From a virus, in IMG/VR virus record IMGVR_UViG_3300001242_000094, positions 1 through 23,200 of that record: a DNA stretch of 23,200 nt. One strand, written 5' to 3'. The notes under the pieces are model-generated. The model ran no database searches. It was not told where the DNA came from and saw only the letters and a program-made list of their open reading frames with translations. The translations under genes and the position numbers were made by a program. This document shows positions 1-22,569 of the stretch, one piece after another (position 1 is the first letter of the stretch; the number at the start of each line of letters is the position of its first letter).

Positions 1-381
1 TTCATCTATAATAACCATTCTGTAGTTAGAAATCTTAGGAGGATTCTTTGAGTTCTTATCACGTGCAAACTCAAGATTGTTTGGGTCAAGATTTTCAACA
101 TCCATATCAGGCTTAATATTCAGAAGAGCGTGGATTGTAACCCCGGTTCTGTCTGTAGTAGTCTGAATAACTCTCTTGGCTTTATGCGTAGGAGCACTTA
201 CTGCAATGCTTCGTGGTAAGAAACTATCAAGAGCTTTCTTGATAATCGTTGTCTTACCTGTACCTGCATAACCACTAAGAGTAAAGTATGTTTCACCTGA
301 CTTCATCCATTCTTTGAGAGCTTCCAGAGCAGCAACCTGTTCATCATTAAAAGTAATGATTGTCCCATTGGGAAGTTTCAT
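1..381 (-). other. SF1 (Dda/RecD-like) helicase domain, N-terminal part, within the giant protein
   Basis: This segment reads MKLPNGTIITFNDEQVAALE (Q-motif-like region, from 3929). It continues with GYAGTGKTT (Walker A, 3965-3973, Lys 3971), APTHKAKRV (motif Ia, 3991-3999), TIHALL, and ends at the window edge with MVIIDE (Walker B). The order and spacing are those of Dda/RecD-type 5'-3' DNA helicases. The rest of the domain lies outside the window. Confidence 0.9.
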
Positions 382-3300
382 CTGATTCTCCTCAAGAGTT
401 GCTTTAGGATTTATCTCTCTTGTTCCCTGAGGTTGAGTTGATAATCTCTGATAAGCACTATATAACGTACTTGGTTTCAAAGGTCTCCAGTTATTAGGAC
501 TACCTTGTGAAAATGATCCTTCAATAGGAACTCCGTTCTTTATAGTGAATTTATAGTATGTTCCGTTCTCTACAAATGTCTTTGTCTCAGTTGTAACTTC
601 TTCTTTAACTTGTTCAACTTCTTGTACTTCTATCTTTTCAGAAGATTCTTCTCTGTTAATTAGATCAAGTACATTGTAAATAGTTTGTTCTAACACGCTT
701 CCTTCTTTTGCGTTGAAACCTACAATAGCCTGAAGAAGTTTTGAAAGTTTTTCCAGAAGTGATTGAAGAACAGTTTGTTGTTTATTAGGAGCTACAATAT
801 CATTAAGTATCCGTGCAAACTCAGGATTTGTGAGAGCAACAGAAACAAATTCTGATAACGTTGTAAATCCATAAAATGTTCCTACTTCTTCTTTAGTAAA
901 TGATGTACGTTCACCTTGATCGTGTCTTAACACCTTATCAATAAAACGTTCATATGCCTTCTTCGTTGCAGGACTCGAAGTTACAACATTTCTTGCATGT
1001 CTCCAAAGAACTTCAATCTTTTCTATGATTTCTTTCTCTCTTGGAGAAACTGTAAGTGTAGGAGAATCTTTAAGAATCTTATTGAGACTCTTTTCATCTC
1101 CCATTTTTGTAAACCAGTAATGCTTAATTTTGTAAGCTGTAAATCCGTGAATAACCTCATGAAGAATTGTTTCTATGATTTCATCAACTGGTTTCTGGGA
1201 TAATCCTGAAGTGTTAAGTACAAGAGTATGAGCTTCATCTCCTTGTGGAGTTTTTGTAAGAGTATAATATCCACTTGTACTTGTATCAACTCTGTTTGTA
1301 AAATCAACACTGAATGCATCAGGCAGTATATCAACCGCATCGTATATTTCTTGTACAAGCTGACCTAAGTAAGCATTTTTGGTCTTTGCTTTAGCTTCGT
1401 TAAGTAATTCTCTTATAGCAGTCTTACCATCAGTTCTCTTAACAGCACTCATCGTTCCGTTTCTCAGAGAATCAATGATACCTGTTACAGTCTGTTTGTC
1501 TTCCTGTAGCATATCAGGAGTTATATCCATATCACCATCCACTATATCCCCAAGAGGATTACCGGTTTTAGGTGCAGGAGTTTCCTGTTTCACATAAGGA
1601 TTTGCCTTGTTGTTACGAATAAGAGATATCTGTCTTGGAACATCTGAATTATATTCTTCGTTTGCAAATGAACCAAGAGTATCTATTTGTATATATTTCT
1701 TTTCCTTGTAATCATACTTATACAAGTTGTATTTCTTACCTGCCTTATCATTCTGTATGGAAACAAAAGCAGGAGGATATAAGTCCAGTGATGCAGTCTC
1801 AGGATCAATTTTTAATGTTATACCTTCTCCTATTCTCTTCAGAGTAGTAGGTTTAAGATTGAATGTTACCAGAGAAATCAAAGATTTTGAATTACCATCA
1901 ACAATGTCATCCAATGTTATTGTCGGAACTTGATCTGGATTATGCTGAATAAACTGTTCTACAAACGGAGGAATATTATAATAGTAATCTATCAGAGGAT
2001 TTTCATTTGGTTCAACACCAAACTGACTCTCAAGAAATTTTATTTCTCCAAGCTGACTTGCAAAAGGCATTGTCACAAGATAAGATGCAGGAATATACTT
2101 AACAAACTGTACAGCTTCCTGAATACCTCCTGTTATGTAAGCGTAAAGAATAAGTTCCTGAGCTAATTCTCTCAATGTTATTGGTTTATCGTTAAACTGA
2201 CCAACAAGAGGACTTGCACCAGTACCATCCGTTTTTGTCAGCATGTCTACAATTGCGGCATAAATATTTGTCTCATCAAGATTCTCAGCTGCAGATGCAT
2301 TAAATTTGATAAGTGTAGGTCCACCTGTCATATTAACATCTACAGTAAGTTTTGAGATGAACGGATTGTTCTTAGCAAATCCTGTTTCTTGTACCTTTAA
2401 CAGGAATGAACCAAGTGATTCTTTAACTCTTACTCTTTTCTCTACATCAAAACCTTTCTCGTCAAAAGTCTTTTCCACTCTCCATCTGTCATAGAGAAGT
2501 CTTTCTCTCTCAGCTGTAATGGATGTATCATAGAGTCCAAGATTTCTTCCTGAATAGACAAAGGATTTAAAGTTATTCCACATGTCTTTTCTACGTTCAG
2601 CTCTATCATTGATTCTATTCTCTGATGATTTACTGAATTTTTCAATCTTCTTGAACATTGTCTCCAGAACTGCTTCACGATAAGGAAACAGGTTAGACCA
2701 CATATCATTAGCTGTAAACAGACCATATGTGATAGCATGACCGTTTATAGTCTTTGATTTGATAGCATAGATCAGATTATTCTTTCTTCTTACAAAGTAT
2801 CCTTCTGCCTTATATTGTGCTTCCATATCAGCAGTAATGATCTTCATATCTCCTACAAGAGAAGAAACACCTGCAATATGAACGTCAGTGTTATTAACAA
2901 GTTCATATACCTGATCTTCTTTTATGATAGACTCCATAACCGATTTACCAACTCCACGTGAGTCAGGATTAAGTGTCGATTGAACTGTCTGTATTTTCTG
3001 TCCGTATTCATTCAATCTTCTGAACAGATCAAGAATCGCAATCTGAGCATATACATAGTTGGGAGCTTTTCTTCCCAGTTCAATATACTTTTTAAGATTC
3101 TCGATAGTAGCTTCTTCAGCTGCAAATTTTCCATGAATTCTGCTATCGTAATCCAGAACTTTATATTTCTCCAGTATCTTAGCATAAGCAGCTTCCTCTC
3201 TGTTACGATTGAATTCTGCCATTGAACTGCTCATTCTTTCAAGTTCGTTGACATAATCAACAATTATATCCTGAGCAAGTATATAAGCAACCTCTTCTGT

Positions 3301-6300
3301 AAAACCAAGCTGATTAAGTATCTTGATTACTTTGAAGGTATGAGTATTGATATTCAGTTTATCAAGGATAGGTTCTTTTGCATTATCCACAGCAGCAGAT
3401 TGATATTCAGCAATAATGTCTGATATATAATCCTTACCATCAAGAGTTAATTCTCTTGACATATCTCCGTTAGATACTTTTTTACCAATCTGAAGTGTCA
3501 GTGCTTCTTTGGAACTGATCATAAACTTCAATCCTTTCCCTTGGGCAATAGCATTGAACATATTATCCAGAGAGAATACACCAACACCAGACTTACCTGC
3601 CGTACCTTCTTTAAATTTACGTCTCTGAACATCATCAGATAGACCTGTATAAAGTCTTGCTCTTCCTTCAGGTGACTCAGAGATTTCTCTTTTCTTTCTC
3701 AGTTCAGTAATATCACCACTAAATTTCTTTAGTCTCTTTGTATCAAGAGGACTTGCAATCTGTGACTGAACACGACTATCAGCATTCTTATGGATAGCAA
3801 GATGGATATCAATGATCCTATTCTTCTCTACATCTGCTTCATTCTTTCCTTTTTTCTCTCTATGAATTTTGATATTTCCTTCATTATCAAAGTAGTAGCC
3901 ATACATATATGTATAAAGCTTATCTACGTCAAAGTCAGAACCCATCTGTACTACAAAATCTCTTGTAGCAATAAGAAGATCGCCTGATGCTTCAGGTAAG
4001 AAACCAACAATCTCAATCCAAGCTTGTGAGTTAGGACCTTGGTTAGGAATTCTCATCCCGAATAACTGCAGAACTTCTTCAGGAACTTTTGTAAGATCAA
4101 TCTTACCATCCTTAATATATCTTGTAATACTTACTTTATCTCCGTCTTTAGTTTTAAATTTCCAAGGAACAAGAGCCTGAGATGGTTTTCTTACTCCGTT
4201 TTCTATTCTTGCTGGTTTAAGACCTGTCTTAGGATCATATGCAGAAGTAAATACTATACCGTCTCTCTTAGCAATCTCTTCTTTAGTTTCTGTTAACAGT
4301 CCTTTGAATCCTTCTTCCGAACCAAGTACGAAAGATTTCCCCGGCATCTTAAGACGAATAATCCTACTGGTTACAAGAGAGTTAAGCAGAGATTCATATT
4401 TGTTTGCAGATGATGAGAATGCAAGAAATTTAAGTTCTTTGTCCAGTTCGACAAGTTCCTGATCTGATAATGGATAACCTCTCTCCCTTGACTCTTGTAT
4501 AAGAAGCGTTCTCAGTTTAGAGATGTCTGCTATTTTTCCAGTTGTCTCATTATATCCTACTTCTTTTACAAGTGCATCTTTCTCGATCTCATGAAGCCTG
4601 CCATATATATCATAATAAATTTGCTGCAGTTCAGCTCCAGTATATTCTTTTCCTTCAAAAACAAACCCTTCTACCTCAAGCATATTAACAAATAGGTTCT
4701 TAGATGCCTGAGTAACCTTGTTAATCATTGATTTCTTAGGATCATAAGGTACTCTCTGCTGTATTCTGAAACCTTTTCTGTTAAGGGTCAGAGTTGATCC
4801 TTCAAATGATATTTGATCAGGAGATATGATCGTTCCATTCTCTCCCCATATATCTACTGCATTGTCTATACCACCAAGTTTAACAGCTGTCATAAATGCA
4901 GCACGTGAAACTTTTTGATTCTCCATTGCCTGACGAAGATTATCAAGTGATAATCCTCTTGTGAGTTGAGGGAATAATGCAAAAGCAGAAGATTTAATAT
5001 AGATTCTTTTTTCTACATCATTTGCTTCATCTATCTGGTTATCAACATAAACTGGTTTCATAGGTTGCATAACCTTACCCATAAGTTCATGTCCGAGATT
5101 TTCTCCCTTGCTTAATGTTTCGTATGCACTCTTGTATTCTTCATCAGATATCTCACCTAACTGTTTCATTACGTGAAGATGTTCCTGCCAAGTAACATAT
5201 TCCTGAGCATCAGTACCATCAAAACTGTAATACTTTTCACTCATAAGTCCTTTGAGAGACTTATTAAATTGATCCTCAGATATCTCACCGTTCTCAAATT
5301 TCTTCCATTCTTCTCTTACCTTATCTGCTTTCTCTTTACCATCAAGAATCTCTGTAATTTCAAAACGTGCAAGAGATGCAGAAGCAGAGTCTTTAAGAAT
5401 TGCCTGAGTGTACATGTCACCATTAGCCTGTGCAAGTTCCATTCCCGGAGCTATATCAGCAGCAAGACGTTTATTTATATTTGCGTATGTCTCTTCTGCA
5501 TCAGCTACAAAATCATATTCTGAACTGGTCTTAGCCTTACCTTTATTAATTGCTGATTGTTTGTAGTAGAGTGCAGGATCACCTGTAAACATCTTATGAA
5601 TCTCAGCATTTGCAATAAGATACTGGAATATCATATCAGTTGCAGCAGCTTTAACTTTCTCCTGTACGTTTACATGAGCAAGAGGATTAGCTCCTTTTGC
5701 AGTTGTTCCCATCAGGAATGACTGATGCATATACTGGAATGCTTTGGTCTTAGGGTTAGTACCAATACCGTTTGTATTCCACATCACAAGTTTCTCAGCA
5801 AGCAGAGAATCAAAATGTACTCTTACAGCTTTTCTTATAGCTGTCATAGACTCAGGAGAACCAATATCACCGTTTATAGTACCGTTAGCATTGAACATCT
5901 TCTGAACCACACCATCTTTATCAGTCCATATAAGAGTATTAAGTTCAGGAAACATCAGGAACTGAGAAGCTCCTTTATTATATCCTTTAAGATTTATTTT
6001 GTTTGTTTCGTTTTTAAGCTGAAACATTTTAATTCTTTCAATCTCAGGACGTGCTACAACATCAACAAGTGCGTCAATTGATTCATCAGTTATGTTTCCG
6101 TCAGGATCAAGAACAAGTTTCTGAGCCACAACAGTTAATCCCATTGCAGTTGTTTTGTCAGATGTAGTCGGATAGAGAACTCTGATTATACGCTGATTCT
6201 TTCCTGACAAGTCCTCCCTGTCAGCTTGCAGCATAGCAATCTTCACAAGTTCTATCTCGGCTTCTGAAAGATTGTTTAGTTCCCTGTTATTCTTCGATTT

Positions 6301-9300
6301 GCTGCCTTCTCTCTTTAAAGCTTCAAGAGATACTGTCCAGTGGTTAAAGTTGTCTTTAAAACCACTCTGATCGTTTGAGAGAGCATTTGCCCATACAGAT
6401 TGTCCGTTGAAAGAAAGTTTCGCAAGAGTTTTAAGAAGTGTTCCTTCTTTTAACTCACGTACACGATTTACCAAGAACTTATTAAGACTGTATGAGTAAA
6501 CAGTTTTTAATCCTGATTTGTGAGAATTACTGAATGAACTTGTACGATACTTAGCGTCGTATTTTGCAAGTGACTTTACAACATTCTGATCAACAATTCT
6601 ATTTCCGCCTAATACAAGAGAACTATCTCCCATCTTTGAAAGCTGGTTAGTGAGAATCTTCATAACTGTATTCTCAACAAAATTCTGAAGAGTCTGAACT
6701 TTACCGAGATGTTTATATTTACCATTCTCTATATCTCTCCAAGTCTGTTCGGTAAGATCAATACCGAGTTGATGAAACCATCCTGCAAGTTCTTCTACTG
6801 AATATTGATGAGTCTTTTCAAATCTCTTCCATGTGGCAATTAATGCATTGGCTAATACCTGATCGAGTACTATATCGTCACCTTCAACGTTTATCTTTCC
6901 GATACGTTCAAGTGTCTTTCCATTCCAATCAGTAAGTATAACTCTTTGAATTGCATTTGAATCAGAATCAAGTTCTTTAAGTTCAAATGATCCTGAGCTG
7001 TTTCTTCCGAAAGTAACGAACTTCATATCAACATAATGGTTTGTCATTGCTGAAACAAACTGATTACGAAGTTGTTGTGGAGCATTCTCAAGCTTGGTAA
7101 TTACCTCATTCAAGAACGGAAATGTATCAGTATGTTCTCTTAATGCCTGAATCAACTCATTATAGTCTGGTCTTCTACCGGGAGTTATTCTCTGAAGAAT
7201 GTTATATACATCCCAGAAATCCATTGTTCTCTGAGCACCAAAGTAGTTCTTATCAGGAATAAACTTACCATCATTGTTAGGATCTTCTCTCCATTTACTT
7301 ATACCTGAAAGGAACTGTTTAACCTGTGGAGCTAACCTATCTGTAGGAGGAGTTGTAAAGACTGCAGCTTCTGAGTAATGAGCAGTTTCGTTTTCTGCTT
7401 CCTCTTCTTCTTCTGTTACATCATCATCACGTTCGATAACCTTAATGTTATCAATACGGTTCATTTGCTTGATGACAAGTCTCTCAAGTTTATTCCAATT
7501 ATCAAGTATCAGATTAACCTCTGTAATCGCTTTGGTGAAACGATCAATCGCTATCTGATCATTCGATTCTGTTGCAAGTGCAAGATTCTCTTTTAGTTTA
7601 TCAAGATTGGTTACAAATGTTGAACGGATTTCTTTGAATGACTTATTCCTTGAAACTCTTTTCTCTTTAAATATTCTATCAAGAATCTTGGAACGTATAT
7701 AATCAACAATCTGATCTTGTTTAGCGGCACTACCAAATGCAGATATGATAACTCCTCTTACCTCATCTTGTCCTACTTCTGTTACTTCAGAAAGAGTTTT
7801 AATATTTTCAACTTCTAAATCTCCAAGAGGAACAACTGATCGTGGCATAAGACTTTCTTCAAAATCACTTGTGAAGTCCATATCACCTTCATAGGTATTA
7901 TCATATTTAGGAGCAGTTGGTTCTGATTCTGATTCTTTTTCTGCTTGTTCTCCAAATCTATCAGCATCGTATTCATCTGAAGGTCTTTGTTCATAACCCT
8001 CTTTTTCTTCTTTTCCTATAATAGGTTTACCTGTCTGCTCATCATTATTATCTACCTGATTGAAATCAAGCGTAATAACAGGTTGTACATTGTATACATA
8101 CTTAGGTGGTTGACCTTCTTCTGCAACATTCTGACCAAGAAATGCAGATTTAGTCATTGAACGAACATGTTCCTTATAAGATTTTGTAGCTTCATTAAGT
8201 ATAAAAACGTTTCTGTTTTCTTCACCTATTGAATCCAGACTAACGTTAATGAACATTGCATTGAGATTCTTCTCAATACCTTCAAATAAAAGTTTACGTT
8301 TTTCAGTCGGTAAGTTTGCAAGAGACTTTCTTGAAACAGTTAATGGTCTTATTCCTCTTCCGAGTGCAGTTTCAAACTGTAAGTCCAGTCCTCCTTCACG
8401 AAGGAAAGATGTAGCAAATCCGTCTTTAGATTGTTCATTGGTTGAATTCTTTATCAGATAAGTTTCAAGATTTAAATTTCCTTTCCCTACATCTGTCATA
8501 TGAACAAACATATTGATGAACTCTGATACACCAATTGCAGTCGTTATGTTCTTTCCTGTACTCTTAAAGACTTCATTTACAATTGATTGAGCTTCAGGAG
8601 TAGTATCGTTGGTCATGTATATCTCCAGAACTTTTCTGATCGTCGCTGCAATGTTAGGATTCTCAGAAAGTTTCTTATTCATAAGAGGAACAGCGATAAG
8701 ACCATCAGTAGATGGAATAACTGTATAAGTTATACCTTCCTTTAAAGCAGTCTTGTTAAGAAGTTTTCCATTGTATGTTTCATTTCTTGATGTGTATAAA
8801 CTTCCGTTCTTAACTACGACGATAGGAAGATTAGAATCGGGAAGAGCTTCTGATGTAGTAATAAGTTGTTTATTGGCAACTCTCCATAAGAATCCACTTG
8901 TCCTGCCTGATATAGCAGTCTCAAATGTTCCACGCTGAACTATATACTTCCTGATCTTCTTGCTTCTCTCTTTATCCTTTGCTACGTCGCCATGAACGTT
9001 CATTGAATTAATCCAGCTTGATTCGTGAAGATACCCTATCTTCTTCGATCCGACATATATAGCAATAGGAACTTCTTCTTCATAAAGTTCTTTGTATCTC
9101 TGTTCTTCTCCAAGAACCCTATTAGTTTTCCATGAAGCTTTCTTAGCTCCCCAAGTTGTACGTATCTTCTCACCTGTTGTAGATGAATCAACATACACTT
9201 TTGCTTTATCATCATCTTCTACTACAAGAGTAACTTTCGTACCAACAGGATATTTCTCAGGATCAAGAATAGCTTTATCCTGAATTTCACTATTGATATA

Positions 9301-12165
9301 ATTGTCAACGTCTTTTCTCTGTACGAAGAATAAGTCTTTTGTCTGTCTGTATAATCTTGACAGATAAGCAATTATACCTGAACCACTTTCAACTCTCAGA
9401 TATTCAACTTCAAGTGAAGAAGACGGGTTAGCAGATTGTGCAACTTCTTTTGTTATCTGATCAAATTCTTTGTTAACTTCTTCTGCAGTAGCATTAGTAA
9501 ACTGCTCGTTGAAAGTTGTCTTAGATTCCTTTTTACTGTTATCAAGTTCCTTTTGTTCATCAGGAGTAATATTCAGTTGATCTTCAAGACTGTTTATCCA
9601 TACATGATTAGGATGAGTTTGCACCCAAAGACCCTGTATCATGTTATAGAACATTCCAACTCTCTTCTTTCTGTGACGATCAAGAAGCATATCAATCAGA
9701 TCATCAAAGGTAATTTTTTGTTTACCTTTAATCTCTGTAGCTTTCTCAATCATAGTCTCAAGAAGACCAACTCTTTTCTGAGCTTCAGAAAGACCTTCAC
9801 CTTCTATAAGAGCTTCTGGTTTAAAGTTCTTTTCAAAGTCATCAAATAGTTTATCAGAAGTGCTGTCGAACTGATCCTGAGATAACTTTACTTTCTCCTG
9901 ATCAACAACTTCGTCAGCACTCATTCCTTTGATGTCAGGATCAACAGCAACCTCATCCTCTACAGGTTCACTTATCTGATCGACATCAGGACCTTCGTTC
10001 TCTACAGGTTCAGAAAGAGCAGATATCTCAATATCTGGCTCTGGTACTTCCTGTTGAACATCTGGAGCTTTCTTTGGTTCTTCCTCTTCTTCCTTCTTCT
10101 TGGATGGTTTGTTTACCTTTTTCTCCTCTTCTTGCAGGTCTTTTTTCTTTTCATTTGCTTTCTTTCTTTCTTGTGCAGCTGCATCCTGAGCTTGTTTTCT
10201 TCTTCTCTCTCTTAACTCCTTACCTTTCTCACGTGCATCTTTGATAATTTGTTCTTTCTGTTTTCTGATCGACTGCTGTGCTTTAGCAGAAGTCATTTCC
10301 TTATAACTGTTATCGAAGTTACCGATATGTTCAGTAACACGTTTAAGTTGTCTTTCTATGTATCCTTTTTCTTTAACTAATTCAGGGTCTTTCTGATCGG
10401 CTTCCATGTCAAGACGCATATCTATATCCTCAAGGTAGTTCTCAAGCCTCTCTTTATCTCTCTGAAGAAGTCTTCTCGATTCACGATTCTGAAATACCTC
10501 TGCCTGATTCTCGTAACGGGTATACTTATTATATGCACTCTCAAGTCTCTTTAACTCGTCGAGTTGTTCCTGAGCCTGTTCCTGATAGTTCTCATCCCAT
10601 CCATTAGCAATACGTTCTTCTTCACTTACTCCTTCAACGATATCTTTAAGACTGCGTTCAAGTTTTTCAGTAGTTCCTCTTGCAAAGTTCTCAGTAGCAA
10701 GAGTTAAGAACTGACTATCTTTAATGTAATCAGCAAGTTTATCTTCCCCTTTGGCAATAGCTTCTGCACGTAACGCCTGTGCTCTTGCATAGCTACCAAG
10801 TTTACTATTAAGATATTCTGTATTTTTTGCTATCTGATCCTGCTGATCTTGATATTGTTTAGCCTTCTGATCTTTTGCACCTTTAGAAAAGTTTCCTGAA
10901 ACAGCTTCAGTAAGAATACGTTGCGGACCTCCACCAAAAAGACCCATCATACCTTCAAGTAATGCCTGTTCTGATGTAGCAAACTGATATACACGATCAG
11001 CAAGATTATCAGGTGTAGCAGAAACATCTCTTCCTGCTTTCTTGACAGCCTGATATTCTCCTTCCATCTGAAGAACGTTCTGACTGATTTCTTCAATTCC
11101 TTCCTTACCAGCTTGTAGTAATAAATTATCACTTGAGAGTTCACCAAATCTCTTTGCCCAAGCAGTAAGTCCTTTATCTTTAATCAGAGAGCGTGTAAAT
11201 CCTGCTCCTTTATGTATTCCATGCAAACCAATAGCATCAGTAAGCATAAATACTTTATTGCGAGTCATAAAGTTATTAGCTTCATTACCAGCAATATTTT
11301 CAAAATCTTTTTTCAATCCATTATTAAGCTGTTGTTGAGCATCTTTCTGAGCCATACCGTATAACTCTTCAGCAGGAAGATCAGGATTTAATGTTTTATA
11401 CTGTTCAAATATATCCTGAACAAGACCTTGTTGAAGTGTATTCATTGAATTCTCAAACTGTTCAACAGCCATCATCTTACCTTCTCCAAAGTTGGTAATG
11501 TAACCTGATGCAAGAGAATTGATTATTTGTTCTGCTCCTTTACTTGTCTTTAAGAATTCAAGATATTTGGACATTCTTATCCCTCTCTGAATAGCACCAA
11601 TACCTTTAGATGCAGCCATACCGGGGATAGCAAATCCTACTGCACTGTCAAGAACACCTTTAAGAGTAGAGAAATAGAAACCGGGATCACTCCAATCGAA
11701 AACCTTGTCTTTATTAAGACGATAGATAGGCATAGCTTTCTCAAGACCTTCTTTGGTATCCTGCATTGCAGATGTCAACCAGTTTTCTTCTACTTGTTCT
11801 GCACCAGTCAGACGCTTAATATTATTATCGAAATCAAGAATATATCCAAAGTCTTCAACAGCTGTAAGCAAACCTGACGCAACACCTCCTACAACAGAAT
11901 TGAATGCTTTAACACCAATAGGTTGTTTTAATGCACGTTCACGTTCAAGATTATCTAAATCACTTCTTGTAATATTATTATCATATCTGCTTTTACTATC
12001 AAAATAATTACCCACATCTTGTGAACCTTCTGATAATACAGCAGCAGTTCCGATTAACGAATCGAAATTAATAGGTGATTTTTTTTGTTTTGTAGATGTT
12101 AATCCAGTAGCAGGATCAATAGCATTATCAACTAAGGGATTTAAAATTCTTGGTTTATCTGGCAT
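1..12165 (-). CDS. Giant virion RNA polymerase polyprotein with metallopeptidase-like and SF1 helicase domains (3' partial, at least 4055 codons)
   Basis: The frame starts at the ATG at 12165 (MPDKPRILNPLVDNA) and stays open in the standard code to position 1, where it leaves the window. Visible order: a Gly/Ala-rich hydrophobic stretch (about 165-195); a long charged coiled coil (about 420-690); a Lys- then Glu/Pro-rich linker (about 676-751); a beta-rich module near 1000-1110; acidic linkers near 1376-1425 and 1580-1605; a single-chain RNA polymerase core (conserved signatures from about 2370 to 2940, catalytic DFDVD at 2744-2748); a zincin-like HEVIH (3669-3673); and an SF1 helicase (from about 3929). 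crAss-like phages are known to carry giant virion-associated polymerases of this type that make early transcripts after injection. The start follows the 668-aa gene by 12 nt and has an A/T-rich leader without Shine-Dalgarno. All major motifs are intact. Fusion to a helicase in the same chain is unusual. Confidence 0.93.
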   Translation of the reverse strand, partial: MPDKPRILNPLVDNAIDPATGLTSTKQKKSPINFDSLIGTAAVLSEGSQDVGNYFDSKSRYDNNITRSDLDNLERERALKQPIGVKAFNSVVGGVASGLLTAVEDFGYILDFDNNIKRLTGAEQVEENWLTSAMQDTKEGLEKAMPIYRLNKDKVFDWSDPGFYFSTLKGVLDSAVGFAIPGMAASKGIGAIQRGIRMSKYLEFLKTSKGAEQIINSLASGYITNFGEGKMMAVEQFENSMNTLQQGLVQDIFEQYKTLNPDLPAEELYGMAQKDAQQQLNNGLKKDFENIAGNEANNFMTRNKVFMLTDAIGLHGIHKGAGFTRSLIKDKGLTAWAKRFGELSSDNLLLQAGKEGIEEISQNVLQMEGEYQAVKKAGRDVSATPDNLADRVYQFATSEQALLEGMMGLFGGGPQRILTEAVSGNFSKGAKDQKAKQYQDQQDQIAKNTEYLNSKLGSYARAQALRAEAIAKGEDKLADYIKDSQFLTLATENFARGTTEKLERSLKDIVEGVSEEERIANGWDENYQEQAQEQLDELKRLESAYNKYTRYENQAEVFQNRESRRLLQRDKERLENYLEDIDMRLDMEADQKDPELVKEKGYIERQLKRVTEHIGNFDNSYKEMTSAKAQQSIRKQKEQIIKDAREKGKELRERRRKQAQDAAAQERKKANEKKKDLQEEEKKVNKPSKKKEEEEEPKKAPDVQQEVPEPDIEISALSEPVENEGPDVDQISEPVEDEVAVDPDIKGMSADEVVDQEKVKLSQDQFDSTSDKLFDDFEKNFKPEALIEGEGLSEAQKRVGLLETMIEKATEIKGKQKITFDDLIDMLLDRHRKKRVGMFYNMIQGLWVQTHPNHVWINSLEDQLNITPDEQKELDNSKKESKTTFNEQFTNATAEEVNKEFDQITKEVAQSANPSSSLEVEYLRVESGSGIIAYLSRLYRQTKDLFFVQRKDVDNYINSEIQDKAILDPEKYPVGTKVTLVVEDDDKAKVYVDSSTTGEKIRTTWGAKKASWKTNRVLGEEQRYKELYEEEVPIAIYVGSKKIGYLHESSWINSMNVHGDVAKDKERSKKIRKYIVQRGTFETAISGRTSGFLWRVANKQLITTSEALPDSNLPIVVVKNGSLYTSRNETYNGKLLNKTALKEGITYTVIPSTDGLIAVPLMNKKLSENPNIAATIRKVLEIYMTNDTTPEAQSIVNEVFKSTGKNITTAIGVSEFINMFVHMTDVGKGNLNLETYLIKNSTNEQSKDGFATSFLREGGLDLQFETALGRGIRPLTVSRKSLANLPTEKRKLLFEGIEKNLNAMFINVSLDSIGEENRNVFILNEATKSYKEHVRSMTKSAFLGQNVAEEGQPPKYVYNVQPVITLDFNQVDNNDEQTGKPIIGKEEKEGYEQRPSDEYDADRFGEQAEKESESEPTAPKYDNTYEGDMDFTSDFEESLMPRSVVPLGDLEVENIKTLSEVTEVGQDEVRGVIISAFGSAAKQDQIVDYIRSKILDRIFKEKRVSRNKSFKEIRSTFVTNLDKLKENLALATESNDQIAIDRFTKAITEVNLILDNWNKLERLVIKQMNRIDNIKVIERDDDVTEEEEEAENETAHYSEAAVFTTPPTDRLAPQVKQFLSGISKWREDPNNDGKFIPDKNYFGAQRTMDFWDVYNILQRITPGRRPDYNELIQALREHTDTFPFLNEVITKLENAPQQLRNQFVSAMTNHYVDMKFVTFGRNSSGSFELKELDSDSNAIQRVILTDWNGKTLERIGKINVEGDDIVLDQVLANALIATWKRFEKTHQYSVEELAGWFHQLGIDLTEQTWRDIENGKYKHLGKVQTLQNFVENTVMKILTNQLSKMGDSSLVLGGNRIVDQNVVKSLAKYDAKYRTSSFSNSHKSGLKTVYSYSLNKFLVNRVRELKEGTLLKTLAKLSFNGQSVWANALSNDQSGFKDNFNHWTVSLEALKREGSKSKNNRELNNLSEAEIELVKIAMLQADREDLSGKNQRIIRVLYPTTSDKTTAMGLTVVAQKLVLDPDGNITDESIDALVDVVARPEIERIKMFQLKNETNKINLKGYNKGASQFLMFPELNTLIWTDKDGVVQKMFNANGTINGDIGSPESMTAIRKAVRVHFDSLLAEKLVMWNTNGIGTNPKTKAFQYMHQSFLMGTTAKGANPLAHVNVQEKVKAAATDMIFQYLIANAEIHKMFTGDPALYYKQSAINKGKAKTSSEYDFVADAEETYANINKRLAADIAPGMELAQANGDMYTQAILKDSASASLARFEITEILDGKEKADKVREEWKKFENGEISEDQFNKSLKGLMSEKYYSFDGTDAQEYVTWQEHLHVMKQLGEISDEEYKSAYETLSKGENLGHELMGKVMQPMKPVYVDNQIDEANDVEKRIYIKSSAFALFPQLTRGLSLDNLRQAMENQKVSRAAFMTAVKLGGIDNAVDIWGENGTIISPDQISFEGSTLTLNRKGFRIQQRVPYDPKKSMINKVTQASKNLFVNMLEVEGFVFEGKEYTGAELQQIYYDIYGRLHEIEKDALVKEVGYNETTGKIADISKLRTLLIQESRERGYPLSDQELVELDKELKFLAFSSSANKYESLLNSLVTSRIIRLKMPGKSFVLGSEEGFKGLLTETKEEIAKRDGIVFTSAYDPKTGLKPARIENGVRKPSQALVPWKFKTKDGDKVSITRYIKDGKIDLTKVPEEVLQLFGMRIPNQGPNSQAWIEIVGFLPEASGDLLIATRDFVVQMGSDFDVDKLYTYMYGYYFDNEGNIKIHREKKGKNEADVEKNRIIDIHLAIHKNADSRVQSQIASPLDTKRLKKFSGDITELRKKREISESPEGRARLYTGLSDDVQRRKFKEGTAGKSGVGVFSLDNMFNAIAQGKGLKFMISSKEALTLQIGKKVSNGDMSRELTLDGKDYISDIIAEYQSAAVDNAKEPILDKLNINTHTFKVIKILNQLGFTEEVAYILAQDIIVDYVNELERMSSSMAEFNRNREEAAYAKILEKYKVLDYDSRIHGKFAAEEATIENLKKYIELGRKAPNYVYAQIAILDLFRRLNEYGQKIQTVQSTLNPDSRGVGKSVMESIIKEDQVYELVNNTDVHIAGVSSLVGDMKIITADMEAQYKAEGYFVRRKNNLIYAIKSKTINGHAITYGLFTANDMWSNLFPYREAVLETMFKKIEKFSKSSENRINDRAERRKDMWNNFKSFVYSGRNLGLYDTSITAERERLLYDRWRVEKTFDEKGFDVEKRVRVKESLGSFLLKVQETGFAKNNPFISKLTVDVNMTGGPTLIKFNASAAENLDETNIYAAIVDMLTKTDGTGASPLVGQFNDKPITLRELAQELILYAYITGGIQEAVQFVKYIPASYLVTMPFASQLGEIKFLESQFGVEPNENPLIDYYYNIPPFVEQFIQHNPDQVPTITLDDIVDGNSKSLISLVTFNLKPTTLKRIGEGITLKIDPETASLDLYPPAFVSIQNDKAGKKYNLYKYDYKEKKYIQIDTLGSFANEEYNSDVPRQISLIRNNKANPYVKQETPAPKTGNPLGDIVDGDMDITPDMLQEDKQTVTGIIDSLRNGTMSAVKRTDGKTAIRELLNEAKAKTKNAYLGQLVQEIYDAVDILPDAFSVDFTNRVDTSTSGYYTLTKTPQGDEAHTLVLNTSGLSQKPVDEIIETILHEVIHGFTAYKIKHYWFTKMGDEKSLNKILKDSPTLTVSPREKEIIEKIEVLWRHARNVVTSSPATKKAYERFIDKVLRHDQGERTSFTKEEVGTFYGFTTLSEFVSVALTNPEFARILNDIVAPNKQQTVLQSLLEKLSKLLQAIVGFNAKEGSVLEQTIYNVLDLINREESSEKIEVQEVEQVKEEVTTETKTFVENGTYYKFTIKNGVPIEGSFSQGSPNNWRPLKPSTLYSAYQRLSTQPQGTREINPKATLEENQMKLPNGTIITFNDEQVAALEALKEWMKSGETYFTLSGYAGTGKTTIIKKALDSFLPRSIAVSAPTHKAKRVIQTTTDRTGVTIHALLNIKPDMDVENLDPNNLEFARDKNSKNPPKISNYRMVIIDE
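780..1320 (-). other. Zincin-like metallopeptidase domain (HExxH) within the giant protein
   Basis: HEVIH at residues 3669-3673 (1161-1147) sits in a predicted helix (EIIETILHEVIHGFTAYKI), the arrangement of zinc metallopeptidases. About 100 residues later, TTLSEFVSVALTNPEF places Glu 3772 in a second helix, a plausible third zinc ligand of the gluzincin kind. The segment lies between the polymerase core and the helicase. The two-helix HExxH plus E pattern is directly visible. Proteolytic activity and its target are inferred. It could act on host proteins or on the polyprotein itself. Confidence 0.6.
3200..5150 (-). other. RNA polymerase core (two double-psi beta-barrel signatures) within the giant protein
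   Basis: Two signature clusters mark this domain. The first is KPVY at 2370 followed by YIKSSAF with Lys 2391, the position expected for the conserved lysine barrel. The second is RIPNQGPNSQ (2705-2714), then EIVGFLPEASGD, then MGSDFDVDKLY, with the three metal-binding aspartates at 2744, 2746 and 2748. Downstream, GKSGVGVFSLDN (from 2857) and AVDNAKEPILDKLNIN (from 2925) are further patterns I recall from crAss-like polymerases. The fold is shared with cellular polymerases, YonO and the phi14:2 gp66 virion polymerase, where one DxDxD barrel and one lysine barrel lie on one chain. The exact domain limits cannot be set by eye. Confidence 0.88.
9915..10930 (-). other. Coiled coil and acidic Pro/Glu-rich linker within the giant protein
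   Basis: From about residue 412 to 690 the chain is an almost unbroken run of charged helices rich in Gln, Glu, Lys and Arg, ending in a very basic stretch (ELRERRRKQAQDAA, KKANEKKKD). It then switches abruptly to EEEEEPKKAPDV and a Pro/Val/Glu-rich linker with the repeated phrase SEPVENEG / SEPVEDEV. This looks like a flexible hinge separating an N-terminal virion-anchoring part from the enzymatic part. No enzyme motif is present. Confidence 0.65.
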
Positions 12166-12177
12166 AATACAATTCTA

Positions 12178-14184
12178 TTATTGTTTAAATTGACCATAAG
12201 TATTATTCATATAAGTATCTACAAAACTTTTCATATGATCTCTTATTTCATCAAGAGAATACCATTCATAAGGATTTTTTTGATATGCTTCATCTGATTC
12301 ATTTTCGCCCTGTTCTCTTCGCATCTTGAAAACTTCTTGCTTATTCACATCTCCACGATAATCAATTTTATTTTTATCAAATCCTTCTATACCAAACATA
12401 GAAAAATCATCAGGAATTATAGCTTGAGTATTTCTATCTTTAAGCATTGCATCAAGTTGAGGAATAAGTTTTGCCACACCTGCAAGTTGCTTATCAGGAG
12501 AAAAATAAACAGTCTTTTTACCTTTTGTTTTTGTTTCAGTCCAATCTATTTCTCCTGCTGTGGTTCTTTTAATATCACCTTCGACAACTGGAATTTCTAT
12601 ATAATTCGATCCTCTTGTTATATTATAAGCAAGAGGAAATTTTCCTTTAACCATCATCTCTTGAAACACTTCATAAGGAATATTTGTTATTGATCCTATT
12701 CCTTTTTTATCATTCCAATCTCTTGTAACTCTTGATCCATCGGTAAGAAAAAATTCAGTTCCATTTATATTATTAGATACAGACACCCCAACTGCCTCAT
12801 TAATAACAGGATTTAAAATAGGAACACTTGTATCAAGAGATTTCTTATATCTTCCTTCTCTATCTTGTAAAAAAGCATTATATACTTCACTATCTGATTT
12901 TCCTTTTGTTAATTCAGAATTGTTTTTACGTAGATCATCAACAGTATTTTTGATCATCGTAAATTGATTTTTACGTTGTTGATAAAGTGGATCAGCTTCT
13001 CTTTCAGCTTTAATTTTTTCAGTATATTTTGATAAATCATTTTGATAATCAAGCCTTGCTTTTTCAGATGACGAAAGTACAGAAGGATTATATACCATAT
13101 TTAATTCTTTTTCAGTAGGAGTTAAAACTCCAAATGTTGCATTAGTATTTTCTTTAAGATTCCCATCTTGATCATATAAAAATGTTTTTGCAGTTCTTTT
13201 TTGTTCATCTGTAGTTCCATATCCTGTATCATATGCAGCCATTTCTCTTGCAGGTCCAAATGAACTTGTCGAAGTAGTAGCAGCAGATGCTTTTCGTTGC
13301 ATTTCTAATTCCCAATCTTGTGTATGTCGTTGTTCATTTTGTTTATATTGTTGTGAATTAATATTACCGTATATTAAATTCTGAACACCTTTTTGAAGAG
13401 TATCAGCATCTTCTCCAAATAGACTTGATTTCTGTTTAGGTAATTCATTAAAAGCTCTTGCCATCTCAGGATGAGCACTTATAATAGCTTGCTGTATATT
13501 AGGGTCTTCTGCAATTTTTTTAAGTTTTGTTGGTGATATTTCTGTTATCTGACCACTTCTTAAAAATCCAAAATCTTCTTTTGATAACCCATAAGGATTC
13601 GAGTCAGGATTTATTTTACCTATTACTTCTTGTATCGTTTTATTCCAATCACCTTTTTCAAGAATATCATATTGTAATTGGTCAGGAGTAATAGTTTTAC
13701 CTGTAGCAGGATCAATTGATCCTTGACCCATAAGACTTTTAAACACTAATGTATTGTTACCATATTCACTTGTACGTTTTCTTTCTTCTGCTTGACGTTC
13801 TTTAAGAATCTTAGCAGTATCCCAGAAAGGATTTTGTCTTACGCTGGTAACCATACGAGCAACTTCTTTTGAAGCACGACCCCAATCACCACCATATTTT
13901 TCTTTAACTACAGTATCCATATTATTAGTGAAATCACCAACAATCTTATTTTTATTAGCTATATCATTCTCACTAACTTCTGCACCGCCATACATATCTT
14001 TTGCTGCAAGAGCTTCTCCATATCCAACATCATATTTCTGCTGATGCTGTTGCAAATTCTGCTGTACAAACTCAAGAGGTATAGGATTAAAGAATGATTC
14101 GTACTGAGATACCGATGGTTCATTGTAACGATACATTGACGAAGAACCTCCTCTACCTCCGCTATAGTTATATCTTTCTGCCAT
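12178..14184 (-). CDS. crAss-like virion cargo-type protein (668 aa)
   Basis: The N-terminus is Gly/Ser/Tyr-rich (YNYSGGRGGSSSMYRYNEP). It is followed by FFNPIPLEFVQQNLQQHQQK and YDVGYGEALAAKDMYGG (about residues 31-68), a pattern I associate with large virion proteins encoded just before the RNA polymerase in crAss-like phages. The middle is soluble, charged and mainly helical. Around 440-560 it is more beta-rich (ITNIPYEVFQEMMVKGKFPL). No membrane segment or catalytic motif is seen. It shares one base with the upstream gene (TAATG) and lies 12 nt before the giant polymerase gene, so the three are probably made together and packaged together. One sampled line is somewhat A/T-richer than the polymerase gene (17 of 60 G/C at 12961-13020 against 21 of 60 at 3001-3060). 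Coding is certain. The cargo role is inferred from context. Confidence 0.72.
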   Translation of the reverse strand: MAERYNYSGGRGGSSSMYRYNEPSVSQYESFFNPIPLEFVQQNLQQHQQKYDVGYGEALAAKDMYGGAEVSENDIANKNKIVGDFTNNMDTVVKEKYGGDWGRASKEVARMVTSVRQNPFWDTAKILKERQAEERKRTSEYGNNTLVFKSLMGQGSIDPATGKTITPDQLQYDILEKGDWNKTIQEVIGKINPDSNPYGLSKEDFGFLRSGQITEISPTKLKKIAEDPNIQQAIISAHPEMARAFNELPKQKSSLFGEDADTLQKGVQNLIYGNINSQQYKQNEQRHTQDWELEMQRKASAATTSTSSFGPAREMAAYDTGYGTTDEQKRTAKTFLYDQDGNLKENTNATFGVLTPTEKELNMVYNPSVLSSSEKARLDYQNDLSKYTEKIKAEREADPLYQQRKNQFTMIKNTVDDLRKNNSELTKGKSDSEVYNAFLQDREGRYKKSLDTSVPILNPVINEAVGVSVSNNINGTEFFLTDGSRVTRDWNDKKGIGSITNIPYEVFQEMMVKGKFPLAYNITRGSNYIEIPVVEGDIKRTTAGEIDWTETKTKGKKTVYFSPDKQLAGVAKLIPQLDAMLKDRNTQAIIPDDFSMFGIEGFDKNKIDYRGDVNKQEVFKMRREQGENESDEAYQKNPYEWYSLDEIRDHMKSFVDTYMNNTYGQFKQ

Positions 14185-17119: not shown

Positions 17120-20100
17120 TTATTTATTAGCTACTGTAAAGAAAGTTATTATGTCATGAACTACAAGTTTTCGAGCAAGAGCATTGCTGAAATCAAGTTT
17201 CAATTTCATGTAAGTATCTCTCATTCTTGCATCTAAGCGAGATTGAGCAGCACCAGTTTCTGTAAGTGCAGCTCTTCCTATAGTGTGTCTCCATCTTCTC
17301 ATTCTTCTCTTTACAGTAGTTCCATATGTAAGAGTTACTGTTCCTGTATCCTGATAGTCGTTACTTGCACGAAGAGATGTGAATGTTTCGTTATAGACAT
17401 TATCCACTCCATTGTATACTTCAGTTAACCATTCAAGATTAGTAAATATGGCTGTATCCATTGAAGACGGATTAACAATCAACGTAATATTAGATGGAGC
17501 AGCAACTGATCCATAGAATGCACATCTGTTTGCTGAAGCATCATTATGACGATAGAAGTTAATCTTGTTGTTTGAACTTAATACCTTATCATTGTAGTTA
17601 ATAACATATGTAGGATAATAAGTATAGAAAGATGTAAATGAATCAGTTAGTTCATTGTACACAAGATGATATTGATTTCCTATAGTAGAACTAACAACTG
17701 ATATTTCTTTATAAGCAGGATCATGGAATAGAATGATATCTCCGAGTACAAGTGTACCTGTAAGTTTTGTTCTGAAATAACTACTCATACCTTTCATCAT
17801 AGAGAGTTCTTCAGGACCACCTGTAAACTTATACATTGCTTTATTGATAACATCAATCCAATATAATCCATTCTGACTGAGAACTATATGATCACGATGA
17901 GAAACTCCCATCTCTGTCTTGGCATAATCAAACCTTGCGAGAACTCCTGATCGACCAAGACTAAGTTGTGATATTGAACTTGTTTGTAAAAGGGCACGTT
18001 CGTTGATTGACAAAGTACCGAACGCTTTAGGCTGGAAGAATAACATTTGATTATTGATGTTCATAAGAGCAATCAATTCTCCGTACTGAGGATCAACATC
18101 AAGATAAGAATTAACTCCAAACTTCAACCAACTATCTGATAGTTCATTATTAATCTTCACATTAGATGCAAGAACTCTTGTATCAAATTTAACCTGTTCA
18201 AACCAATCGAATGGTCTGATCAGATGAATCTTAGTAGTATTTTCTTTTGAATAAACTGTATTGTAGATATATAAATCTGTAGGTTGTACGTACTCTGCTG
18301 CAGGTCCATGTACTCCTTGTTGCTCTCTCATATATTGAACTTCAGCATCAGCTACTCCTGCAACAGTCTGAGCATGATAACAAGTATCCATTCTCAGATC
18401 AAGGTTGATTGAAGTTTCTACAGGAAAGTATACCACTTCACATCTTCCTGTAGCAGAAAGAACTTCCCATCCTGCATGAAGATAATCAAAGAGAGAAATA
18501 TAAGTGTCTCCGTCAAATACAGGGATTACAGCTGAGTTAAGTATCTGAACCCTTCCTGTTGCCATATAGAAGTTTCTTGAACGGGATTCGTAAGTATTAC
18601 CATTGTACTGATAAGTAAATACATTTCGTCTGTAGTTAACAAGAGGTCTTGTAGCTGCAGCTGAGTTGAGTGCTGCCCAACTTGTATTAGCTATTTGACA
18701 TGCAAAGTTTGTTCCTTTATCTGCATCCAAATCAACACCTGCACTTGTTTTCATTACTTTAGAATAAGTATATGAACCAATAAGTGCATCATTGGTATCC
18801 ATTGTCACTACAATTCCATTATTTACATCCGTAAAATTATTAATATAAAACTCATCTCCGGCTACAGCAACTGCTGGTCTGTCCTGAGGATCAGTTAAAG
18901 CAAGTATCTCTCTGTATTTTCTACGATACAGATTACTGATATTATCACTTTGTAATTCTCCAAGTGTTCCAACAATCTGAAGTTTGTCTCCTGATTGTCT
19001 TGTAAGATTCTTATTAAACGCTACTTCAGGAGAATTGAAACAAACAATAGAAGTGTTCCACACTGTTTCCTGCCCCCAACTATAAGGATGTCTGTTATTG
19101 CTATCAGCATAAGTTCCTGTTACAACTCCTTGTGCACGAATTGATCTATCATTAGTTTCTCTACGAACTCTTACAATCTGATATGAAAGATCTTCAGCTT
19201 CTGTTCCTGTCAGGTTAACTGTAAATTCAGGATATAGAATATTCATTTTAAGTTTACCTGCAATAGAATCATAGTATACAGAAGAGAAGTTTGTAAGTTC
19301 TCCACCTGCACCCGCATAAGGAGTAATATTTGTAGTAGCATAACTAATTGAAACTTGTAATCCTCCAATCCATCTTTGAATATCAAGTGTATGTGATCCA
19401 CCAATTATTTCATAAGTTATATCAAATGTATTATTAACATAGTTTACGTTTGAAATTGATACATCAAATATAAATGAAATAGCAGCAAGTATACCATCCA
19501 TTGCATCATCTTCACTTGCTTCATTATAAGTATATCCATATCCTGTTGGAACAGGATTACCATCTATCCATACACGATATTCACAATCTGAACCACCGGC
19601 ATAATCTTGAACTTCAATTCTATCTGTTTGCCAAGTAGGACTACCACCATCAGGATCATATAAATTAATACTACCTTCTGTACTTATAGAAGGCATACGA
19701 ATATCACCTATCCATTTGACAAATGAACTACGACCTTTATCATCAAAGAAGACTATACCGAAACGATATACTTCATCTCTTGCATATCCAAGATATTTAG
19801 CACACTGATAAGGACTTGCGTAATTAGTGAATGAAGGATTATCAGGAATACTTTCAAGTCCTGCTCTAATATACTGAACACCTGCATTATTGTCAAGTTC
19901 AACAGTCTTAACTTTGAATGTATATTTTATATATGGTCCTTCGCCTCCAAGTACAACTCCGTCTGCTTGATACATGAAACGATAGTTATGATCACCATCA
20001 TTATCAATATCATTAAAGTTATTGATAGCATCAAAGTCTGCAGGTATGTTTGCCCATCCTGTTACGTTTGCTAAACCACTACCAGTCCATACTCCTACAG

Positions 20101-21307
20101 GATTAGTTCCGTCTCCTTCATAATAATTGCCTTGACTATCGTAAATTCTCGATTTACGCCTCAATCCGGCAGTGAGTTGATAGTTGGGATCAGTTGATGT
20201 TCCACTCGCTCCTGCGAAGCGATATGCCCTTGCATCAAAGTCTATATCGAAAGATGTCTCTGTAATGTTAGCAGGAAAGAGCATATTGTCTTTTACGCTT
20301 ATCTCTTTCGGAACAAACAGATATGTTCCAAGGATTCTTAATTGCTCAAGAGTAAGACTTCCATAGCTTTGTCCGGCATCTACAAAAGAAGTTGATCCTC
20401 CTGTAGGAGATATATCTTTCTCCTCGATGATTCTGATTTCAGGATCAGCCTGAAGCGTTGTGTAATGAACAGCTACAATTCTTATCCTGTTGTAACCTGT
20501 AGCCTGAATATCAATTGTGCATCTAACGGCTTTACCTGTCTGTTCGTCAAGATCACTTCCTTCGTAAGCATCAGTAGTACTTGCCTGTTCATTTGATCCT
20601 ACTACGTTGATAAGATGACTCATTGGACTGAATACAGTCTCACCTCCGTTAATAACGTACAACTGATAAGTATATTGTACTTTACCTGCACGAAGATTAC
20701 CTGCCTCAAAAGAATCAAGTTCAGGACGGGTAATCATAAAGTCACTGATAACCTCAAGCTTATCTGCTGTAAGGTTTGTAAGATCATTTGTATCTGCGTT
20801 ATGAATAGTATTGATATGACGAAGATTATTATATCCGTCAACCCAATATAACTTCTGTATTGCATCATTTTCAAATCTTCCTACAGAACGTATCTTGTTA
20901 CCTGTACAGAAATAAAGACTACCTGTATATATTAAGTTACCCCCAAGATGGAATCTTGTATTACTTAAGGTATAGAAATTAACTCCTACAAGTGTTTCAA
21001 TAGAACTTATTGCTACTTTCCAGATTCTGTCTGTAGATGCTCCATTAGGAGTATTCGTGTTGTTAGTAGTTGTAAAAAGCAGGATATGATCTCTTATTAC
21101 AGTATGTCCTATGACATAGTGACTGCTACCATCATTGCAGTAAAGACGCTGCAAGTTACCAAGTACGTTCTCAATTGCCCCGGAACTTAAACCGTCCTGA
21201 GTTATAGGTCGTATATTCTCTGCAGAGAAATAATGAAGATTATCATATTTGTTCTTTGATGAATCCTGATCTAATCCCTGACTGAAAGTATTTCTGAATT
21301 CTGCCAT
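17120..21307 (-). CDS. Tail nozzle / 'muzzle' protein, tail-tubular-B-like (1395 aa)
   Basis: A very long, beta-strand-rich protein without transmembrane segments, coiled coil or enzyme motifs. It begins MAEFRNTFSQGLDQDSS, the usual N-terminal signature of large tail-tube/nozzle proteins of crAss-like and other podoviruses, in which a short leader is followed by a 'dN.r' segment (YFSAENIRPITQDG, about residues 27-40). The C-terminus has the pattern R-x-R-D-TYMKLKLDF...HDIITFF typical of crAss-like members. The length of about 1.4 kaa is much larger than T7 gp12 (about 800 aa) but fits the crAss muzzle protein that closes the tail end. It shares one base with the upstream adaptor gene (TAATG at 21305-21309). 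After its TAA comes the only sizeable gap in the window, so it may be the last gene of the tail sub-operon. Coding is certain and the role is inferred from pattern and order. Confidence 0.78.
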   Translation of the reverse strand: MAEFRNTFSQGLDQDSSKNKYDNLHYFSAENIRPITQDGLSSGAIENVLGNLQRLYCNDGSSHYVIGHTVIRDHILLFTTTNNTNTPNGASTDRIWKVAISSIETLVGVNFYTLSNTRFHLGGNLIYTGSLYFCTGNKIRSVGRFENDAIQKLYWVDGYNNLRHINTIHNADTNDLTNLTADKLEVISDFMITRPELDSFEAGNLRAGKVQYTYQLYVINGGETVFSPMSHLINVVGSNEQASTTDAYEGSDLDEQTGKAVRCTIDIQATGYNRIRIVAVHYTTLQADPEIRIIEEKDISPTGGSTSFVDAGQSYGSLTLEQLRILGTYLFVPKEISVKDNMLFPANITETSFDIDFDARAYRFAGASGTSTDPNYQLTAGLRRKSRIYDSQGNYYEGDGTNPVGVWTGSGLANVTGWANIPADFDAINNFNDIDNDGDHNYRFMYQADGVVLGGEGPYIKYTFKVKTVELDNNAGVQYIRAGLESIPDNPSFTNYASPYQCAKYLGYARDEVYRFGIVFFDDKGRSSFVKWIGDIRMPSISTEGSINLYDPDGGSPTWQTDRIEVQDYAGGSDCEYRVWIDGNPVPTGYGYTYNEASEDDAMDGILAAISFIFDVSISNVNYVNNTFDITYEIIGGSHTLDIQRWIGGLQVSISYATTNITPYAGAGGELTNFSSVYYDSIAGKLKMNILYPEFTVNLTGTEAEDLSYQIVRVRRETNDRSIRAQGVVTGTYADSNNRHPYSWGQETVWNTSIVCFNSPEVAFNKNLTRQSGDKLQIVGTLGELQSDNISNLYRRKYREILALTDPQDRPAVAVAGDEFYINNFTDVNNGIVVTMDTNDALIGSYTYSKVMKTSAGVDLDADKGTNFACQIANTSWAALNSAAATRPLVNYRRNVFTYQYNGNTYESRSRNFYMATGRVQILNSAVIPVFDGDTYISLFDYLHAGWEVLSATGRCEVVYFPVETSINLDLRMDTCYHAQTVAGVADAEVQYMREQQGVHGPAAEYVQPTDLYIYNTVYSKENTTKIHLIRPFDWFEQVKFDTRVLASNVKINNELSDSWLKFGVNSYLDVDPQYGELIALMNINNQMLFFQPKAFGTLSINERALLQTSSISQLSLGRSGVLARFDYAKTEMGVSHRDHIVLSQNGLYWIDVINKAMYKFTGGPEELSMMKGMSSYFRTKLTGTLVLGDIILFHDPAYKEISVVSSTIGNQYHLVYNELTDSFTSFYTYYPTYVINYNDKVLSSNNKINFYRHNDASANRCAFYGSVAAPSNITLIVNPSSMDTAIFTNLEWLTEVYNGVDNVYNETFTSLRASNDYQDTGTVTLTYGTTVKRRMRRWRHTIGRAALTETGAAQSRLDARMRDTYMKLKLDFSNALARKLVVHDIITFFTVANK

Positions 21308-22059: not shown

Positions 22060-22569
22060 TCAATTTGTTATTATCTTTGGACGCTGTTCATAGTAATCAA
22101 CTTCTCCTTCAAATATTGCTTTCGCAAGTTTTCTTTTATTCTCTCTACTCATTACAAGTGAGTAAGCGGTTTGATTTATAATACAACAGGTACTCTTATC
22201 CCAGAACCATTTACAGTTAAACCCACCAAAATGTTTATTCAAATGGAATACTATCTGTTTTCTTTCTTTGGCTTCGTCATCTCTTTTCCAGAGTTCTTTT
22301 GTTGATTTCCAGTCTGGGCGAAGATAACGTTTATCAATAGTTCCATCGGGATTAAGAGTAACCTGTATTTTTCTTTTACGTATTCCTAATACACCAATAC
22401 GAAACGGCATCACAAAATCTTTTCCAGCAACAATATCATTTGTCGTTAGATCGGCAAATTCTTTCCAGAGAGATACAAACAATTTCTGTTCAACAGGATT
22501 CTTACTATTCTTCTTGTAGAACTTATAGATTTCATTTATACCATTATGGCGTGACTTATTGCGTTCCAT
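22060..22569 (-). CDS. Conserved basic structural protein, probable head-tail collar component (169 aa)
   Basis: A 169-residue, strongly basic protein rich in Lys and Arg, with an N-terminal helix (MERNKSRHNGINEIYKFYKK) and a later beta-rich section around residues 55-80 (FRIGVLGIRKRKIQVTL followed by an NPDG turn). No enzyme motif, signal peptide or transmembrane segment is seen. It starts inside the preceding gene, in an overlap of 14 nt. It ends in TGA, the only non-TAA stop among the complete genes here, 15 nt before the next start. crAss-like phages normally carry a small conserved protein at this place, between the connector proteins and the tail-stabilisation protein. By position this is probably one of the ring or connector proteins lining the collar. 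I do not recognise a more specific family. There is no strong Shine-Dalgarno sequence before the ATG. Confidence 0.6.
   Translation of the reverse strand: MERNKSRHNGINEIYKFYKKNSKNPVEQKLFVSLWKEFADLTTNDIVAGKDFVMPFRIGVLGIRKRKIQVTLNPDGTIDKRYLRPDWKSTKELWKRDDEAKERKQIVFHLNKHFGGFNCKWFWDKSTCCIINQTAYSLVMSRENKRKLAKAIFEGEVDYYEQRPKIITN

Follow-up and report, generated by a model that had tools for sequence, protein, structure and literature searches.

The 23.2 kb IMG/VR virus record analysed here, referred to throughout as the window, carries on its minus strand, in gene order, the two crAss tail ring proteins, 2 before 1 with an ORF of 169 aa between them, followed by a virion protein of 1395 aa, several cargo-like ORFs with a GIY-YIG endonuclease interposed, and then a 668-aa ORF and a giant ORF (Table 1). 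A single frame of at least 4055 codons had been described in a first-pass annotation of the sequence, and this was borne out, as were its three landmark motifs (DFDVD, HEVIH and a Walker A), all of which lie where it had placed them. Its term polyprotein implied cleavage, for which there was no support. The giant polymerase gene adjoins a structural block (Pfam tail rings, a PHROG virion protein and cargo), as in crAss-like virion RNA polymerase loci, and homologues of the 668-aa ORF precede the giant gene in the related loci L007, L008, L010, L042 and L071. Genes for TerL, MCP and portal were absent from the 23.2 kb contig, and an Rfam scan of the window gave no matches. The GIY-YIG endonuclease ORF (15290–15979) separates two cargo-like ORFs of 355 and 368 aa (window 14184–17039), apparently pieces of a single gene; the 355-aa piece ends shortly after GGEITWNSYVFSNKL, and Rfam detected no known intron in the region of the endonuclease ORF.

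Table 1. Coordinates of genes, domains and motifs in the 23.2 kb window.
Feature	Position	Strand	Remarks
Giant ORF, at least 4055 aa	1..12165	minus	ATG at 12165; 3' end runs off the contig at position 1 without a stop; zero cysteine
Giant ORF N-terminal region, residues 1–800	9766..12165	minus	Kept in closest relatives L007 and L008; distantly in crAss002 gp32
Two-barrel RNA polymerase core, residues 2160–3100	2866..5688	minus	AF2 model and Foldseek match to 6VR4
Catalytic DFDVD, residues 2744–2748	3922..3936	minus	Motif region invariant in the alignment of relatives
Zincin-like metallopeptidase domain (likely), residues about 3561–3840	646..1485	minus	
HEVIH zinc motif, residues 3669–3673	1147..1161	minus	
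SEFVSVALT with conserved Glu	829..855	minus	Likely third zinc ligand
Dda-like SF1 helicase, N-terminal half, residues 3905–4055	1..453	minus	Contig end cuts after motif II
Walker A GYAGTGKT, residues 3965–3972	250..273	minus	
668-aa ORF just upstream of giant ORF	12178..14184	minus	Zero cysteine
1395-aa virion structural protein	17120..21307	minus	PHROG 28748; 10 cysteines
crAss tail ring protein 1	21307..22044	minus	Pfam CrAss_Ring_1
crAss tail ring protein 2	22556..23143	minus	Pfam CrAss_Ring_2

Residues 2300–3089 of the giant ORF matched 6VR4, the virion RNA polymerase gp66 of phage phi14:2 (phmmer, E 1.7e-40), and an AF2 model of residues 2160–3100 built with 37 relatives (pLDDT 86.9, pTM 0.86) returned 6VR4 as its sole significant Foldseek match (E 3.3e-37, query TM 0.75). 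The core of the giant ORF is a crAss-like two-barrel virion-type RNA polymerase, sharing with gp66 the two-barrel single-chain fold over about 940 residues and the DFDxD motif. Virion presence has been shown by mass spectrometry both for the phi14:2 polymerase, according to its record annotation, and for the crAss001 polymerase (PMC10172136). Coliphage N4 gp50 is a giant injected RNA polymerase followed by an HExxH domain (PMC5512222, PMC12633501), the same arrangement as in the window, although its T7-type polymerase is unrelated to the two-barrel fold. In nine relatives (L018, L022, L023, L024, L026, L028, L029, L035 and L041) the polymerase is encoded as two halves, divided about 270 residues ahead of DxDxD by an intervening gene of 158–169 aa, at about 9100–9650 (about 3600–4120 in L024), and both halves bear the facing cysteines.

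The HEVIH motif lies 925 residues past DFDVD in the window, and the corresponding spacing is about 770–1260 residues in relatives with a downstream HExxH. About 100 residues beyond HExxH, the glutamate of an xEFVxxALT segment was kept in at least 90% of 40 relatives. The Pfam SprT-like profile scored 23.8 bits against the window domain, under its curated cut-off of 25.6, so that the zincin call rests on the motif, the conserved glutamate and the conserved position. The domain model was confident (pLDDT about 90), with only a weak Foldseek match to N4 gp50 (E 0.2, probability 0.72). The HExxH domain is thus likely to be zincin-like, with the glutamate as probable third ligand.

The end of the visible frame scored above the Pfam cut-off for AAA_30 and matched the PHROG Dda-like helicase over residues 3900–4055 (E 9e-28), with T4 Dda as the best PDB match (phmmer, E 8e-7); taken with the phmmer match to 6VR4, these scores indicate that the domain identities are not due to chance. 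Besides the Walker A (motif I), the window retains SF1 motifs Ia (SAPTHKAK, 3990–3997) and II (VIIDE, 4051–4055, the last residues of the contig), whilst motifs III–VI and domain 2 lie beyond the contig end and were found in most complete fused relatives, being degenerate in L008. T4 Dda belongs to the same family and bears the same motifs, but is a free-standing gene with ordinary cysteine content, and the Dda-like helicases of the crAss-like phages cr127_1 and crAss002 are also separate, with ordinary cysteine content, in contrast to the fused copy of the window. T4 Dda is an early 5'-3' translocase that strips proteins from DNA and helps replication to start.

Comparison with isolated phages separates the known from the new parts of this architecture. 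In phi14:2, gp67, gp66 and gp65 are three separate proteins without a helicase, and the zincin motif sits in the neighbouring gp65 rather than in the polymerase gp66, whereas the window joins these functions in a single chain. The best isolate match, gp33 of the Flavobacterium phage Fpv1 (4401 aa, PHROG 16227), has the polymerase followed by a HEVIH zincin in the same order as the window, but ends after the zincin and has the catalytic motif DYDID instead of DFDVD; the Dda-like helicase of Fpv1 is a free gene elsewhere in the genome (434–438 aa). Fpv1 gp44, annotated as a DNA helicase, was considered as the free counterpart and rejected, since its sequence looks UvrD-like and the Dda-like gene is another. 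Helicase or other motifs were sought in phi14:2 gp65 and Fpv1 gp34 and none were found. Fusions reported for N4-type virion polymerases comprise ART, lysozyme and PBECR, a helicase not being named among them. Among about 50,700 GenBank phage records queried with the window and two fused relatives, none covered zincin and helicase together. The first-pass annotation had called the architecture unusual, and this stands for the helicase but not for the polymerase and zincin, already found in one chain in Fpv1 gp33. The giant polymerase and its fusion to a zincin are therefore known, whilst the helicase fusion and the exchangeable slot in which it lies, described below, are new.

Searches of viral contigs with single window proteins gave no matches, and an alignment around DFDxD was used instead, gathering 80 loci. 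A census of free and fused helicases, made by PF13604 search over the whole records of 77 related IMG/VR entries, placed the helicase inside the polymerase frame in 17 (stop-free frames of 1977 to 7317 aa). All 17, from different metagenomes, share the order polymerase, zincin and helicase in one frame, a second scan added three further new contigs with the fusion, and near-identical locus pairs from different metagenomes (L049/L051 and L061/L063) share the same fusion. Recurrence in several independent genomes was what the first-pass annotation had named as support, and the fusion recurs across many independent contigs. A separate Dda-like gene was present in about 18 of the 77 records, and fused and free copies above the family cut-off occurred together in none (P about 0.006, phylogeny ignored, and with many contigs being fragments from which a free copy could be missed). 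The fused label changes three times on the helicase tree (bootstrap 3–4) and six times on the polymerase tree; going by the helicase tree, the fusion appears to have arisen at least three times. On this tree the helicases of the window and L032 group beside free crAss helicases and away from the other fused clusters. Three helicase types occur within one tight polymerase clade, suggesting that helicase modules move between phages. The nearest polymerase relative of the window, L007 (56% identity), ends after the zincin without a helicase.

The giant ORF holds no cysteine in 4055 residues, compared with ten in the 1395-aa virion protein, and across relatives the polymerase block contained 216 cysteines in 364,638 residues (0.059%) versus 0.27% in other ORFs of at least 300 aa in the loci. 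Fused helicases contained 2 cysteines in 9,767 aa and their free-standing relatives 80 in 9,285 aa, with frequencies that do not overlap (Mann-Whitney p 1e-7, phylogeny ignored), indicating that the fused helicases avoid cysteine just as the polymerase proteins do. Cysteine is missing from the virion polymerases of the N4 family too, which has been attributed to injection through the tail (PMC3915230). The cysteine loss is a mark of selection shared with the cargo chain and not a sign of helicase activity. Beyond the helicase, a conserved, cysteine-bearing C-terminal tail was present in 16 of 16 complete fused ORFs. Entry of the helicase into the cell together with the polymerase, as the first-pass annotation had envisaged, gains indirect support from this tail and from the cysteine loss of fused relative to free helicases; the case for joint travel of helicase and polymerase is good, albeit indirect. 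Our preferred reading is that a Dda-like SF1 helicase has been inserted between the zincin and the C-terminal tail of a crAss-like virion RNA polymerase, and is probably packaged and injected within the polymerase molecule.

The position between zincin and tail is an exchangeable slot. Among close kin that share common sequence before and after the module, with a tail ending in YLLICGK, the slot holds a helicase in L023, NADAR in L029 (above the Pfam cut-off, E 2.7e-14) and L021, and nothing in L084. Other tails carry RNase H (L034), DUF7831 (L020) or a 2OG-Fe(II) oxygenase/AlkB-like domain, for which the match is clear in L065 and weak in L063. The occupation of one slot by unrelated domains in close relatives favours a different reading, in which the helicase is one of several interchangeable passenger effectors, alongside NADAR, AlkB-like and RNase H domains, and the polymerase only a delivery vehicle, for example against host defences, with no special link to transcription. 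NADAR has been proposed to counter ADP-ribose-based immunity (PMC9503650), and such mixtures fit the theme of polyvalent proteins, very large proteins of many domains, delivered along with DNA, that combine a zincin with varied enzymes (Iyer et al. 2017, PMC5512222). The window architecture would fit this class, with a two-barrel polymerase core and one fixed slot for the extra domain as its differences; crAss-like phages and Dda are not mentioned in that paper. Helicase is, however, by far the commonest recognised module in the slot and belongs to a replication-helicase family, and with a free copy not found in fused genomes this suggests replacement of a normal phage function, leaving the passenger reading a tentative second choice. 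In L065 (1265–20509) one frame, 7317 aa long in the whole record, encodes a polymerase, an HExxH domain, an AlkB-like oxygenase and a helicase together with a domain resembling tRNA-ligase CPD. The giant polymerase ORF of the gut crAss-like phage cr109_1 (L108, 7210–20196) is annotated as DprA-like, and the segment so annotated also follows the zincin in L063 (tail residues 301–506), as another module in the same slot.

If the helicase does enter as part of the polymerase, it would act beside it from time zero, before any phage gene expression. It could translocate on the incoming DNA, clearing bound proteins, opening promoters or removing R-loops, and might also do the early replication work of the free copy not found in fused genomes. 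The motor need not be active in every lineage. L008, the next nearest polymerase relative of the window and its closest fused one, has a helicase-like domain (13832–16705) with a broken Walker A (GTFADTGR) and DExx box (VVDQ); judged by these motifs its fused helicase is likely inactive, so that the motor is not essential in the L008 lineage, and the helicase in some lineages may be inactive or merely DNA-binding. The loss of the Walker A lysine and DExx box in L008 would also suit a domain that no longer works as a motor anywhere and survives as a structural or DNA-binding relic, but motifs I, Ia and II are intact in the window, and of the 17 fused relatives at least 15 retain Walker A and most retain motif II, which makes a general relic unlikely. 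That assembly produced a false join, or that the frame is not translated as one protein, is highly improbable even with a contig that ends 453 bases after the helicase start, given that the fusion recurs in many contigs of different metagenomic origin, that the conserved tail follows the helicase and that the fused copies have lost their cysteines. CrAss-like phages have repeatedly written a DNA helicase into an apparently injected polymerase, so that the earliest complex of viral enzymes after entry may bring a DNA motor of its own.

The few cysteines that remain in the polymerase block are concentrated at its internal junctions. Scoring a junction as paired where one cysteine lies within the final five residues of the upstream piece and another within the first seven of the downstream piece, we found facing-terminus pairs at 55 of the 61 junctions internal to the block, and at all seven testable junctions in contigs outside the discovery set; the loci covered are L007–L086 and L111–L155, plus L003, L107 and L001. 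These facing termini hold 114 of the 216 cysteines of the block. At the outer ends, cysteine occurred at the end of the last piece in 0 of 48 cases and at the start of the first piece in 4 of 38, all four following an unrecognised ORF that ends in cysteine. Six junctions break the rule. Three of them (L014, L043 and L054) resemble frame breaks, and the other three (L017, L030 and L064) come from a clade whose genes are arranged differently. The rule holds in the annotated phages phi14:2, Fpv1, cr53_1, cr109_1, cr127_1, cr107_1 and ctcc615; in phi14:2 the sole cysteines of these three proteins are the last residue of gp67, residue 3 and the second-last residue of gp66, and residue 3 of gp65. 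CrAss001 fits with a gp50 C-terminal cysteine nine residues from the end, and crAss002 fits if translation starts at a later MSC.

A DNA-level cause, such as a junction sequence or reinitiation signal, was rejected because both cysteine codons occur at the background ratio, the spacing between pieces varies from an overlap to some 500 bases that include a further gene, and gp47 of crAss001 is encoded on the other strand. The lack of cysteine at the outer ends makes a packaging tag alone less likely, and variation of the cysteine position by up to four residues renders native chemical ligation or intein chemistry unlikely. Other inter-protein disulfides are present in crAss001 virions, which were run reduced and non-reduced (PMC10172136), and disulfides between cargo pieces are accordingly plausible. 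We lean, by a modest degree, towards a model in which the pieces are tied head to tail by disulfides and threaded through the tail in order, the bonds forming in the oxidised virion and being released in the reducing cytoplasm. A metal site shared between the facing cysteines, instead of a disulfide, would fit the sequences as well. Beside the polymerase block of L056 (17306–19966), a Dda-like helicase forms its own 887-aa ORF with only two cysteines, at residue 3 and the second-last residue, and so looks like a separate cargo link, although it is counted above among the free-standing helicases. Under the disulfide model, enzymes of the helicase type could be loaded either within the chain of an existing link or, as with this 887-aa helicase, as their own link capped by cysteine at both ends, and peptide fusion and cysteine bridging would be interchangeable in evolution.

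In the literature searched, which did not cover the phi14:2 structure paper (Drobysheva et al.), we found no statement of the terminal-cysteine rule, and it appears to be unreported. The pattern offers a sequence signature for injected cargo. How megadalton cargo passes, in order, through a channel narrower than 50 Å is an open question for crassviruses (PMC10172136); chaining, if true, would bear on both the ordering and the passage, and could explain why the giant genes fuse and split so freely. In L017, L030, L056 and L064 the polymerase pieces have a non-cysteine end, the upstream side breaking the rule, and three of these four carry a GGIN..CGC-like segment resembling the ends of cargo proteins. 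In crAss002 gp33 (L005, 9172) an in-frame MSCTPSN lies about 32 residues past the annotated start and agrees with both the cysteine rule and the start of the cr107_1 protein, so the annotated start is probably wrong.
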